From a virus: a stretch of 57,546 bases of DNA. The stretch is taken from positions 1-57,546 of IMG/VR virus record IMGVR_UViG_3300046171_000107; one strand, given 5' to 3'. Below the pieces are notes generated by a model. It searched no databases. It was not told where the DNA came from and saw nothing but the letters and a program-made list of their open reading frames with translations. A program made the translations under genes and the position numbers. Position 1 is the first letter of the stretch. Each line of letters starts with the position of its first letter. Positions 5,461 through 57,546 of the stretch are shown one piece after another.

Positions 5461-5681
5461 ATCTCTGCGTCCTCAGTTAGTTTCGCTTCGATTTTTGGAT
5501 GAGATACCCAACTTTTGATGCCCAGTTCATCGGTTCGTTTGAATTGCTGGTATTGTTCGCGCCAGTATGTTGGGTCTTCATCGTTCCATTCTGCCTCTTC
5601 TGCGTAGAATTGGCAAATTTGCATACAGGCGTAACCTGTAAGCCACCCGTCGGGTGTTCTAGTTATTTGTGGTAAGCGCAT
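5403..5681 (-). CDS. Hypothetical protein, 92 aa
   Basis: MRLPQITRTPDGWLTGYACM at the start; Trp-rich (WNDEDPTYWREQYQQF, WKNSWTPWAQR). No family recognised. Its start overlaps the end of the GIY-YIG gene by 23 bases, so it is likely co-expressed with it. The 3' end overlaps the start of the 40-aa membrane ORF. Confidence 0.65.
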   Translation of the reverse strand: MRLPQITRTPDGWLTGYACMQICQFYAEEAEWNDEDPTYWREQYQQFKRTDELGIKSWVSHPKIEAKLTEDAEIWKNSWTPWAQRHSLSRWQ

Positions 5682-6975
5682 TAAATACTTCCTCCAGCGG
5701 TTTATCTTTGTTTTTTAGGATCATGTCCCTGACCGTATGCACTTTTGGTATCCCGTAGGCTTCGCCTATTTCTTTGAGCGTTCGATATGTTTCGCCGTGA
5801 ATTACATAGGTGCGGTAGGGTTTGGGGCGGCTATGTGGCAGAACATCGGTGGTTAATGCGTCCTCTAATGTCCACCCGCTGTTTCTGACCCGTGAGGCGA
5901 CTAATTTGGGGTTTGCCCCGAAGGCTCGTGATGCGTGGGTCATGGACTTATATTCGACACCGAAGGCGATAACGGCTTTTAGCGGCTTATTATAAGGCGT
6001 GATCCGCGGTTCGATTTCCAAGGCTTGTTCGGCAGACCAGTTCAGCACCGCTATGCGGCGGTGGGCTGTTTTGTAGTCTACCGTGCCGAAGTAGTCGCAA
6101 GCGTCGGTCAATGTAGGGAAGATTTCCCCAGAAACGGATATGTCGGTTATTTTACGGACGGAAAACTTGGTTAGGCCGTGTTCTTTTTTAAGACGGTAGA
6201 GGGTGTGCTTAGCCATACCGTATTTTTTGGTTATATCGTCGTCGGTTGCCCCACCTTTAACCTCTTCGATTATTTGTTGGCGGACGGTGTCGTCGTATCG
6301 GACGGTCATTTCGGCGCGGGTTTTGGTTGCCCCTGCTCGTTGCAGGATTCGGTTTATGGTGCTACGCCGGACATCATATTTGTCGGCTAGTTGTTCGGTG
6401 GTGATTTTGTTTTCGGTGTAGTCGTTGATAACGGCTTGGATTTCATCATCTGACAGTTTGATACCATATCCGCCCATCGGTGCGCCGACTAAGCCGTTTA
6501 GATGGACGGCGTCGGGGAAGGCGGCTTGGACTTTGGCAATGAGCCGTGGTTCGCGGTGCGCGATCTCTGTTGCCTTGTATTTTTTACAGAAGATTTTAAT
6601 TTTGCACGGTTGGTCATTTTTTAGGAAAGCGCGGTAGATGAAGCGGTCTCTTTTATTGACGCCGTCTTTGCCGTCGCGCTTTGCTTTTTGGATGTGTTGT
6701 TTGAACCGCAGTTCGGGGTCTGCGCTTGACCCGATATATATGCCTTTTCCATCGACAGTTAAGGCATAAAGTTGGCAAGGCCTGTCGGCATGACCTGACA
6801 GTTCGGCGGGCGCGAGGGGCTTGAGCCCCAGTTTTTTGCCCCAGTTACGGACGATAGCGTAGTCGTTGTTGGACAGGCCTTTATTTCGGCAGGCCTGTAA
6901 CACGGAGATTTTTTCCTGCGCCGCGTGTTCATACATATCGCGGATTTGTTTGTCGGAAAACTTACGACGGGGCAT
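5659..6975 (-). CDS. GIY-YIG endonuclease with HTH repeats (homing-type)
   Basis: 438 aa. A GIY-YIG nuclease core is at residues about 69-100: LYALTVDGKGIYIGSS with the following Arg (R90) and KQHI. After it come helix-turn-helix units (ITTEQLADKYDVRRSTINRI near 193; TDDDITKKYGMAKHTLYRLK near 242) and several NUMOD-like segments near the C-terminus (SMTHASRAFGANPKLVASRV; TLKEIGEAYGIPKVHTVRDM). This is the build of a free-standing homing endonuclease that cuts at a specific site and promotes its own spread. The N-terminal segment has an additional HTH-like stretch. Two copies of the CCGTGnnYCGCG motif fall inside it. Confidence 0.8.
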   Translation of the reverse strand: MPRRKFSDKQIRDMYEHAAQEKISVLQACRNKGLSNNDYAIVRNWGKKLGLKPLAPAELSGHADRPCQLYALTVDGKGIYIGSSADPELRFKQHIQKAKRDGKDGVNKRDRFIYRAFLKNDQPCKIKIFCKKYKATEIAHREPRLIAKVQAAFPDAVHLNGLVGAPMGGYGIKLSDDEIQAVINDYTENKITTEQLADKYDVRRSTINRILQRAGATKTRAEMTVRYDDTVRQQIIEEVKGGATDDDITKKYGMAKHTLYRLKKEHGLTKFSVRKITDISVSGEIFPTLTDACDYFGTVDYKTAHRRIAVLNWSAEQALEIEPRITPYNKPLKAVIAFGVEYKSMTHASRAFGANPKLVASRVRNSGWTLEDALTTDVLPHSRPKPYRTYVIHGETYRTLKEIGEAYGIPKVHTVRDMILKNKDKPLEEVFNALTTNN

Positions 6976-49098: not shown

Positions 49099-49288
49099 TG
49101 CTTCGCTCCTGTTTTTCTAGCAGGCCCTTGAGTTCCTGTTCCACGTGATCCAGAGATTTTAAATTTCCCATGAGCTCACGATACTGCTCGATGTTCTTGA
49201 CGTTGTCATAAATTAACAAGTCTTGAACTGCCCTCCGCCGCTCTTTGATAATCCGAAAAGCGGCTTCGGCAAAATATATTTCATCCAC
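49091..49288 (-). CDS. Hypothetical helical protein, 65 aa
   Basis: FAEAAFRIIKERRRAVQDLL then LKSLDHVEQELKGLLEKQER: two amphipathic helices. Overlaps the co-chaperonin start by eight bases. Common small gene in this region of marine phages; no function known. Confidence 0.65.
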   Translation of the reverse strand: MDEIYFAEAAFRIIKERRRAVQDLLIYDNVKNIEQYRELMGNLKSLDHVEQELKGLLEKQERSND

Positions 49289-54623: not shown

Positions 54624-55652
54624 TCAATAATACCCCGAACGACTGGTCTGGAAGAACCCCTGCTCATTGCGCGGGAAATACACGTCAAGGCCACCTTCCG
54701 GAGACCTGAATGAGCGTTCTCCCGGTTCGCGGCCCAAGATCCTGTCCAATTGCTCAAATAATTTACTATCCACCATCTTAGCTAACTGCTGCGGGGTAGC
54801 ATTAACACCTGCCTCCCTCAACAACTTCACGCCAAACGCATTGTTGCGCTTGTCCATAGCCACATCTTCAGGAGTAGCATTACCAATAAGCGGTATAGGC
54901 AAAGCGTCTATACCCTCCGCGAAATTTCCTAATTTAATCGCGGTCTCCGGGCCAAACTGCCTTGCCATCTCAGCAGACATAAGCGCATGAGCCCGCGCAT
55001 CTTCTAACTCCTGAAACGTCGGCATATCATGCCGTGGCCGCTGGTTACGAATGTCTTCGGGGGCATCACTAAACTCACGTGGAACCTCCGCATACCCATA
55101 CTTTTGCTCCAACATCTGTTCAAATGTCGGGGCCCCTTCAGGATAATATGTCTGTGAACCCTCGCTGCTCTCTCTTCCAGAGGTGCGAACAAGATTCTGA
55201 GCCTCCGCGTTTGGCGCGTTATACAAAGCAGACAAAATGCCCGCTTCCTCAATGGCCGGGTTTCCGCCTTCCTGCATATAAAGTTCCGGGGCCCCTTTGT
55301 AACCACGAAGATCCGTGGGCCGCGAACTGAAATCCGGGGTGGACTGCCGCGTCAACGGCTCAGCCATACCCTCATACGGCGAATAGCGGGGCACATCTTG
55401 TTCAAAATACTGGCCTGCCATGCCTCGACTACGAGCGTCAGACCCTAAATCAACGCGATAACCCTCTTCATCAATAAAAGGCCGCGCTTCGTCGTCTACA
55501 AAATAATAGGCTTCGCCCGTCTCAGAGTAAGAGGGCCGTGTGCGGCGGGAAATCTCTACCGGGTCGTTGGTCCCGTATAACGCCTCGTCCATCGACATAT
55601 TACCAAAATCGGTAAAACCGCCCGCCCCAAGATTTACCGCAGAATCCGCCAT
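54624..55652 (-). CDS. Virion-associated protein with DUF6973-like region, 342 aa
   Basis: Low-complexity acidic N-terminus with YMQEGGNP (a GG tag), then a C-terminal region DARAHALMSAEMARQFGPET ... GNATPEDVAMDKRNNAFGVK like DUF6973, found in toxin-immunity and phage contexts (H..., then D..NN..G). Located between TerL and portal. Possibly an ejected effector or a head-associated protein; function unknown. Its start overlaps the TerL stop by one base (TAATG). Confidence 0.6.
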   Translation of the reverse strand: MADSAVNLGAGGFTDFGNMSMDEALYGTNDPVEISRRTRPSYSETGEAYYFVDDEARPFIDEEGYRVDLGSDARSRGMAGQYFEQDVPRYSPYEGMAEPLTRQSTPDFSSRPTDLRGYKGAPELYMQEGGNPAIEEAGILSALYNAPNAEAQNLVRTSGRESSEGSQTYYPEGAPTFEQMLEQKYGYAEVPREFSDAPEDIRNQRPRHDMPTFQELEDARAHALMSAEMARQFGPETAIKLGNFAEGIDALPIPLIGNATPEDVAMDKRNNAFGVKLLREAGVNATPQQLAKMVDSKLFEQLDRILGREPGERSFRSPEGGLDVYFPRNEQGFFQTSRSGYY

Positions 55653-57097
55653 TAGTAATACGCCCTAACCCTTACATTTGTGTCCTCGTCATCCCAATCG
55701 TCACTGGGCAACTGAACAAAGTTACCTTGCCGGTAGCGCATCAAAGCCTGTGTCATACTATCAACCAAGTCATCGTGCTCCCCGTTTGGAAACGCCGCCA
55801 CCTCCTCAATCATCTCATCGGCAAAGACGGTGTCGGGGGCCCAAACCATACCAGCCTCAAACAAAGGCGATACAGAGTGAACTCGTGTTATCTTATCATT
55901 TCCTTTGCTTGGCGTAAAGTTAACAACGGGGATGCCCATGTTTCTTAATTCCTGCGTCAAAGGCAGACCAGAGGCCTTGGCTTCCACAATTACTGTGTCG
56001 GGTTCCCAATACTTATATTGCTCCAAAGCCATGTTTTTTAATTCAGGAAAATCCCACCGGTCCTTTTGGCTGTCCAAAAGTATGAGTCCCGGAGGGCCCC
56101 CAACCTCCTCTGGACGAAATACGCCCCACGTGGTTATCGCGCTAAAGTCAGCCGTCTCGCGTTTACTAAATGCCGTATCATAACTCTGAATGACATATTC
56201 AAGATTTGGAATCTTGTCTTTCTCCCAGCGCCTCCACCATTGACGTGGGATGATCGCGTTCTCTTCGCCCGTCGGATTCTGCTGATACTGCGCGTTCCAC
56301 TTGCTGGGCGGGATAGATGCTTTGACCGCGGTCAGGTCTTCGATTGACCAAAACTCAGGCCAGCACGGGACGCCATCATCAAAAATCGCAGGAAGTTCCA
56401 CAACTTCCCATTGGTCCGCTAGGGGGTCTTTAGCCATCGCCTTCAAAAGCTGGCCCGTCATATCCTTTTCTGACCACCGGGTCTGGACCAAAACAATCGA
56501 CCCACCCGGCTGGAGCCTCTGTCGGGGGCCCCCAGTGTACCAATCCCAAGCATCGTCAAACCCGTTCGCAGACATCGCCGTCTGTTCCGAATGCGGGTCA
56601 TCAATGATTACCAAGTCGCCACCACGACCCGCGAGGTTTGATCCAACACCAACGGCATAGTACATCCCGCCAGCAGAAGTGTCCCAACGACCAGAAGCTT
56701 TACTGTCAGCAGCCAATTTAACATTCGGAAACACCTCCTTAAATTCATCACTATCCAAAAGATTTTTTGTCTTACGGCCAAAGTTGACCGCAAGCTCTGT
56801 CGTGTGCGTCGCCTGAATAATCTTCATCCGCGGGTTCTTGCCCATCATCCAAGCAGGAAACAGGAAGGATGCGAACTCTGACTTCGTATGACGCGGGGCC
56901 ATGTTGATGATAAGTCGCTTTAGGTCGCCTTTTGCAACCCTTTCTAACTTTTCGGCAATAATTTTATGATGACGACCGGCAATAAATTCCGGCCACATAG
57001 ATTTTACAAAAGTCAAAAATTCTTTCTGACAAGCTTCATTCTTCTCGATTTGCGCGAGTCGCAGGCGAAGCTTTAACTCCTGATCTGAAACATCCAT
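55652..57097 (-). CDS. terL: Terminase large subunit
   Basis: 481 aa. ATPase: Walker A-like MAPRHTKS (66-73), Walker B DLVIIDD (161-167), and coupling motif VLVQTRWSEKD. Nuclease: QSYDTAF (305-310, Asp307), VIVEAKASG (369-377, Glu372) and C-terminal HDDLVDSMTQAL, matching Terminase_6C-type RNase H-fold nucleases. It drives DNA packaging and cuts the concatemer. ATG 57097 begins MDVSDQELKL. Preceded by a non-coding stretch with the parS-like palindrome. Confidence 0.95.
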   Translation of the reverse strand: MDVSDQELKLRLRLAQIEKNEACQKEFLTFVKSMWPEFIAGRHHKIIAEKLERVAKGDLKRLIINMAPRHTKSEFASFLFPAWMMGKNPRMKIIQATHTTELAVNFGRKTKNLLDSDEFKEVFPNVKLAADSKASGRWDTSAGGMYYAVGVGSNLAGRGGDLVIIDDPHSEQTAMSANGFDDAWDWYTGGPRQRLQPGGSIVLVQTRWSEKDMTGQLLKAMAKDPLADQWEVVELPAIFDDGVPCWPEFWSIEDLTAVKASIPPSKWNAQYQQNPTGEENAIIPRQWWRRWEKDKIPNLEYVIQSYDTAFSKRETADFSAITTWGVFRPEEVGGPPGLILLDSQKDRWDFPELKNMALEQYKYWEPDTVIVEAKASGLPLTQELRNMGIPVVNFTPSKGNDKITRVHSVSPLFEAGMVWAPDTVFADEMIEEVAAFPNGEHDDLVDSMTQALMRYRQGNFVQLPSDDWDDEDTNVRVRAYY

Positions 57098-57245
57098 CGG
57101 GGGCCCCTAAAGTTGCACATATTACAGGCATAAATATGCACACTTTTTAGTCAGTTAACAAGTCCCATCTAATTGCACAAAAAATAGGCAATGTTTCACG
57201 TGAAACATTCATATCATTTTTCACATGATTATTTGAGAAAAACAT
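57098..57245. other. Non-coding region upstream of terL
   Basis: 148 AT-rich bases: three TGCACA words (57114, 57137, 57174), the parS palindrome, and possible weak -10 elements (TATTTA). With 1-414 across the junction it forms the longest gene-free stretch of the circle, a plausible site of packaging start or of partition. Confidence 0.6.
57190..57209. promoter_or_regulatory. Perfect parS-like palindrome
   Basis: The core TGTTTCACGTGAAACA (57192-57207) is identical to the consensus bacterial chromosome parS site bound by ParB, and the palindrome extends to 20 bp with AAT/ATT flanks. No ParA or ParB gene occurs in this genome. See findings. Confidence 0.8.
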
Positions 57246-57546
57246 GGCCCTTGCCTGCGCAGCCAGAGCCCGTGGCCGCGTTGCGCGATTTTTGGTAAAT
57301 GATTGATTTATCACGGTTTTTGACCCGATACCGGAATCCTAGTTTTTAAGGCCGCCGCCCGCGTTTCGACGCCCGCCGCCCGCGTATCATGCGCCGCGCT
57401 ATTCGCCCCGCGTTGCCCGTGCCGCGTTCCGCCGCCCGTGAAAATTTTTAAAAATACCGACGCCCGCGCCCCGCGTTTTTTGGATTGCGCCCCGCCGTGA
57501 TTTTTCCGCCGTATGTTTTACGCAATCCCCGCCCCGCCGCCCGCGG
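57246..57546. repeat. Right copy of the 301-bp terminal direct repeat
   Basis: Exact duplicate of 1-301. A 20-codon plus-strand ORF (ATG 57244) crosses into it; it lacks a ribosome site and is not called. Confidence 0.95.

Follow-up and report, generated by a model that had tools for sequence, protein, structure and literature searches.

Results

The locus upstream of terL

The window, by which we mean the whole stretch of DNA analysed, is a virus record of 57,546 bp that comprises a genome of about 57.2 kb and a 301-bp exact direct terminal repeat. The phage is a marine virus of bacteria of the HTVC023P type; its terL, its family A DNA polymerase and the record length of 57.5 kb all fit this assignment. 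The terL gene is the first of a long leftward late block of packaging and structural genes, in which genes for the portal, the capsid and other structural proteins follow on the terL strand, and it served as the anchor for finding relatives. The features of the locus are the following.

55652-57097, minus strand: terL, large terminase, 62% identical to HTVC027P terL over its full length, with Terminase_6C among the Pfam matches of the phage
57152-57158, minus strand: TTAACTG element between parS and terL, conserved in relatives
57190-57209, no strand assigned: perfect 20-bp palindrome AATGTTTCACGTGAAACATT, enclosing parS, read directly
57192-57207, no strand assigned: orphan parS, exact chromosomal consensus TGTTTCACGTGAAACA, read directly and conserved in relatives
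57230-57250, minus strand: GGGCCATGTTTYTSNCAAATA, a conserved element beyond parS as seen from terL, with the terminal-repeat boundary (57246) inside it
57246-57546, no strand assigned: 301-bp direct terminal repeat, copy two (copy one at 1-301), rich in GC and devoid of genes

A preliminary description of this DNA had reported a site identical to the consensus parS, within a 20-bp perfect palindrome in a gene-free spot upstream of terL. Both points were borne out, and the site was found to be intergenic, 94 bp upstream of the terL start codon. It has the 16-bp palindrome of a chromosomal-type parS, TGTTTCACGTGAAACA (Livny et al. 2007, as cited in PMC10197239), and judged by its sequence the element is a parS. 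The only other match in the window with three or fewer mismatches has three and lies at 49137. Under a uniform model about 1e-5 exact matches to the 16-mer are expected in 57 kb, in agreement with the earlier view that a random match was very unlikely, and conservation of the site in relatives went far beyond chance.

The TTAACTG element is perhaps part of a late promoter; a sigma-70 promoter scan gave no match. Another palindrome, GGGGCCCC, is present at 57100-57107 just before the terL start codon, and nearly all relatives keep it in the form AGGGGCCCC or AGGGTCCCC. The terminal repeat carries CCGCCGCCCGCG runs. Its edge lies inside the conserved element, 38 bp from parS, and could correspond to the physical end of the genome or to the start of packaging. 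That the repeat boundary is a fixed physical end beside parS is unproven: an end repeat was found in one of ten other long records, where it is 77 bp long and located elsewhere. In other parts of the genome, ORFs matched Pfam HlyC (RTX acyltransferase family, 3e-16) and the RNA polymerase alpha C-terminal domain (6e-10), and a 438-aa protein encoded at 5659-6975, near terS, showed a GIY-YIG nuclease match and several helix-turn-helix domains. No integrase was present among the 25 listed of the 57 Pfam families matched by the 64 ORFs.

Absence of ParB and ParA genes

Profile searches of the window with ParB_N (PF02195), TIGR00180 ParB and ParA/AAA_31 (PF13614) gave no match at E <= 1, while their built-in positive controls did match. 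The phage encodes no detectable ParB or ParA, in line with the preliminary description. PF02195 also failed to match in any of 36 related phage records, and all three bacterial MAGs in the same search were matched. A self-sufficient ParABS partition system was rejected, as parA and parB genes were not detected in the window.

Conservation of parS among relatives

Relatives were fetched with the terL protein, with terL in genome contigs and with an adjacent element devoid of parS, so that the samples were not chosen for the motif; loci fetched by the parS motif itself were excluded. After removal of duplicates, 189 close relatives (1.53 Mb) were retained. The exact 16-mer was present in 78 of them and a site with at most two mismatches in 87. 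In 81 of the 189, and hence in 81 of the 87 site-bearing loci, parS lies no more than 200 bp upstream of terL. Of all perfect 16-bp palindromes in the 1.53 Mb, the two most frequent were TGTTTCACGTGAAACA (78 loci) and its TTCC/GGAA variant TGTTCCACGTGGAACA (15 loci), which are two known parS forms; the next occurred in 7. Composition-matched control palindromes, 839 in number and built from shuffled half-sites, were all absent from the same DNA.

The best match within 300 bp upstream of terL had no mismatch in 75 loci, one in 4 and two in 4, giving 83 loci with an intact parS. No locus had three or four mismatches, the remaining 103 showed the background level of five to eight, and shuffled sequence never fell below four. 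This bimodal distribution indicates that the site is either kept whole or absent. Chance or base composition as its origin was rejected by the shuffles and the control palindromes.

Within one context group, the core columns were 98-100% identical and the flanks 34-98%. The two variable core columns form the symmetric pair 5/12, which ParB tolerates. Substitutions mostly follow the ParB tolerance pattern TGTTYCACGTGRAACA, to which nearly all sites in the close group conform; the few departures were changes of an end base to C or G, one at a last-but-one base and one at the centre.

Absence from close relatives, which the preliminary description had raised as the case against the site, was not what was found: the exact 16-mer was present in 17 of 20 relatives with terL at least 90% identical. 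At 80-90% terL identity about 40% have the site, pointing to repeated gain or loss. About half of all relatives lack parS though they keep the same terL arrangement, and parS is therefore not essential to the group.

Position and turnover of the sites

The flanking contexts of parS in relatives are several and unrelated to each other. The site lies upstream of TTAACTG in 27 loci and downstream of it in 26, and in L015-L018 it is about 1 kb away (near -1058). It may be single or paired at a distance of 24 bp; in a subgroup that includes L027, L031, L032 and L043 it is doubled as a 23-24-bp repeat. The earlier suggestion that the site insulates terL, or acts as an operator, at a fixed geometry is disfavoured, since parS is found on either side of TTAACTG. 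On a terL tree (FastTree) at least 12 changes of state were needed; recombination between relatives can explain some of them, and 12 independent origins are therefore not claimed. GC content below 0.43 was seen in 0 of 81 carriers and 20 of 98 non-carriers; the hosts of the two may differ. Co-occurrence with CtrA sites, considered by analogy with Spo0A in phi29, was dropped, as full CtrA sites in the terL-upstream regions were rare (8 loci against 3 in shuffles).

Occurrence of parS in hosts and in other viruses

The same parS core was present in 233 of 289 Alphaproteobacteria, usually about two per genome; the backward control was found in one. Host assignment from relatives' MAGs was abandoned: the labels conflict (Verrucomicrobia, Rhodobacteraceae, Maricaulis, Euryarchaeota and others), so the binning is unreliable.

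A scan of IMG/VR with the parS 16-mer returned at least 120 stretches. Control palindromes in a complete scan returned 5 (outer bases permuted) and 4 (single symmetric change), and the excess of parS is therefore at least about 24-fold. ParB scored above the curated cut-off in 3 of 50 parS-bearing viral contigs, some of them fragments. Among the matches listed, 32 of 119 IMG/VR parS stretches encode a relative of the window terL (28-93% identity). Two contigs, L097 and L124, each carry five exact parS upstream of a terL 28% identical to that of the window; they represent another phage group, one with an array of parS.

Against cultured phages, a 31-base query containing parS found 316 records, with an identity of at least 99% in 229, and a scrambled query found 2; many of the records are near-duplicates, so that 316 is not the number of independent events. 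Hosts listed were Listeria, Microbacterium, Arthrobacter, Gordonia, Bacillus, Lactobacillus, Enterococcus, Ruegeria, Vibrio and others. Exact orphan sites are present in RpAliso and DSS3_MAL1, cultured phages of R. pomeroyi DSS-3. Phages of Escherichia, Klebsiella and Salmonella, hosts without chromosomal ParABS, did not appear among 60 entries spread over the ranking of the 316. All 13 cultured phages inspected had parS and 12 were free of ParB, the exception being Microbacterium phage NoodlelyBoi. In Vibrio phage phi 3, parS lies inside the left terminal repeat and is repeated near the other end of the record. In a partial literature search, no paper described orphan parS as general among phages. 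Orphan parS is a general phenomenon, common in many unrelated phages, and its distribution suggests that lytic phages may often recruit host ParB.

Discussion

Proposed role of the site

Direct results here are the presence of the site, its conserved state, a degeneracy of the kind that ParB tolerates, and the lack of ParB and ParA genes in the phage. Because of the published precedent of phi29 and Spo0J, we read the site as an orphan parS that would load host ParB. The explanation as a whole, in which the element is a working parS kept by the phage for this purpose, is given a probability of about 55%. Binding of host ParB to the window site is very probable; a role in positioning or co-segregation, argued by analogy, is in our estimate evenly balanced. 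The step from sequence to binding is strong, and the step from binding to positioning or co-segregation, taken from phi29, is weaker.

From these data we infer ParB binding, sliding and benefit as follows. A host ParB dimer would bind the palindrome and close as a CTP clamp, and the closed clamp would slide onto neighbouring phage DNA. The phage genome would in this way gain a partition complex without encoding ParA or ParB. The likeliest benefit, as published for phi29, would be that the phage genome takes up a position with the host origin and segregates along with it while an infection is slow or has stalled; the genome would then not be lost at host division over a long latent period or in a carrier state. 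The varied places of the site, on either side of TTAACTG or about 1 kb away, single or paired, fit a parS that acts from a range of places. Its clustering near terL exceeds what pure tethering needs, although this region is also the gene-free stretch of the phage. Candidates for what the phage gains are positioning, a carrier state, late-gene control and a ParB decoy.

Alternative explanations

The clustering of sites at the head of the late block is what brings in the main rival, regulation of the late operon by host ParB. ParB would repress terL and the downstream genes early, and multiplication of the genome would dilute it over many sites until the operon is released, as in a copy-number timer. 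There is a parallel in Pseudomonas aeruginosa, where ParB at the intergenic parS3 and parS4 represses adjacent promoters (PMC5521831). However, the near-equal split of sites upstream and downstream of TTAACTG and the sites about 1 kb off do not suit such control, nor do the half of relatives that have the same terL arrangement and no site, and orphan sites in other phages lie within genes or far from terL. We regard this explanation as unlikely. Less likely again is a decoy, in which many phage copies of parS pull ParB away from the host origin together with MipZ or SMC, so that host division or segregation is stopped to the benefit of the phage. A decoy would need no more than the site, unaccompanied by ParA or ParB; two-site versions exist, and orphan parS is widespread in phages. 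Yet with one or two sites per genome the sink would be weak at the start of infection, and only after spreading does clamp loading engage many ParB per site.

Two further explanations were considered. The palindrome could be the operator of a phage-encoded or other host regulator and resemble parS by coincidence, considering that it is intergenic, adjoins the putative late promoter and belongs to a phage that encodes helix-turn-helix proteins such as that at 5659-6975. This is highly improbable: each of the two common variants is a known form of parS, the palindrome has no fixed place with respect to the putative promoter, and unrelated phages with different regulators, from the hosts Listeria, Microbacterium, Gordonia, Arthrobacter, Bacillus and Ruegeria, carry the identical 16-mer. 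A chance match or host contamination might be suspected of a metagenomic record, but the site is held in place next to terL across dozens of independent contigs and the controls were at or near zero; the data from relatives already refute it, and its probability is negligible.

Significance

A bolder proposal, possible but on balance doubtful, is that recruitment of host ParB is a widespread strategy of lytic phages of Alphaproteobacteria, Actinobacteria and Firmicutes, and that in the group of the window it serves a role other than partition, diluted ParB timing the late operon or host division being disarmed. If host ParB does load on these phages, the segregation machinery would be a common target of lytic viruses and not a peculiarity of phi29 and the spore. 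Orphan parS would then be a sequence-level marker of carrier-state or pseudolysogenic ability in phages called strictly lytic; for the ocean, with its long latent periods, this ability is under debate. The question is testable now, since sites of this kind are present in cultured phages of Ruegeria, Listeria, Gordonia, Arthrobacter, Microbacterium and Bacillus.

Comparison with known systems

The window site shares with chromosomal parS of bacteria the identical 16-mer and the tolerated changes. The chromosomal sites lie near the chromosome origin, whereas sites of the window type are on a phage, single or paired.

The nearest isolates are the HTVC023P-type pelagiphages (PMC9599517). The terL proteins of HTVC023P, HTVC027P and 023Pt_psg01 are 54-62% identical to that of the window and genome size is similar; the window phage differs in its higher GC content (about 50%), and in these isolates no exact parS was seen near terL. 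The paper describing them does not mention parB (PMC9599517). HTVC023P has no parS site. In HTVC027P, the best-studied relative and a cultured phage described as obligately lytic (PMC12753301), the only site is CGTTTCACGTGAAACA, with one mismatch, at L201:1897-1912, near terS and about 4 kb from terL. Its flanks are conserved as much as its core and its centre varies in relatives; HTVC027P is a weak case and was not counted as support. In pelagiphages CGTTTCACGTGAAACA may be a degenerate parS or another conserved element.

The ParABS systems of phage-plasmids and plasmids (P1, N15, SCP1) likewise have a centromere-like partition site. Each of these supplies a ParA and a ParB of its own, specific to that system, whereas the window phage encodes neither. 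SCP1 was considered as a user of chromosomal ParB and set aside as a precedent, distinct specificities having been reported. CtrA sites in alphaproteobacterial phages (PMC9437464) are also phage-borne sites for a host cell-cycle protein, but the protein and the site are others.

The published precedent for a site of the window type is phi29, a virulent Bacillus phage with four TGTTTCACGTGGAACA sites and no ParB. According to Meijer et al. 2005 (cited in PMC9437464), this genome is trapped in the spore by host Spo0J, the ParB of B. subtilis. Both phages have orphan parS-type sites and no ParA or ParB of their own, the combination expected of phi29-type use of host ParB, and the window phage may likewise be lytic and rely on the ParB of its host. 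phi29 has several dispersed sites, of which at least two are inside genes, and its host sporulates, whereas in the group of the window there are one or two sites, clustered upstream of terL.
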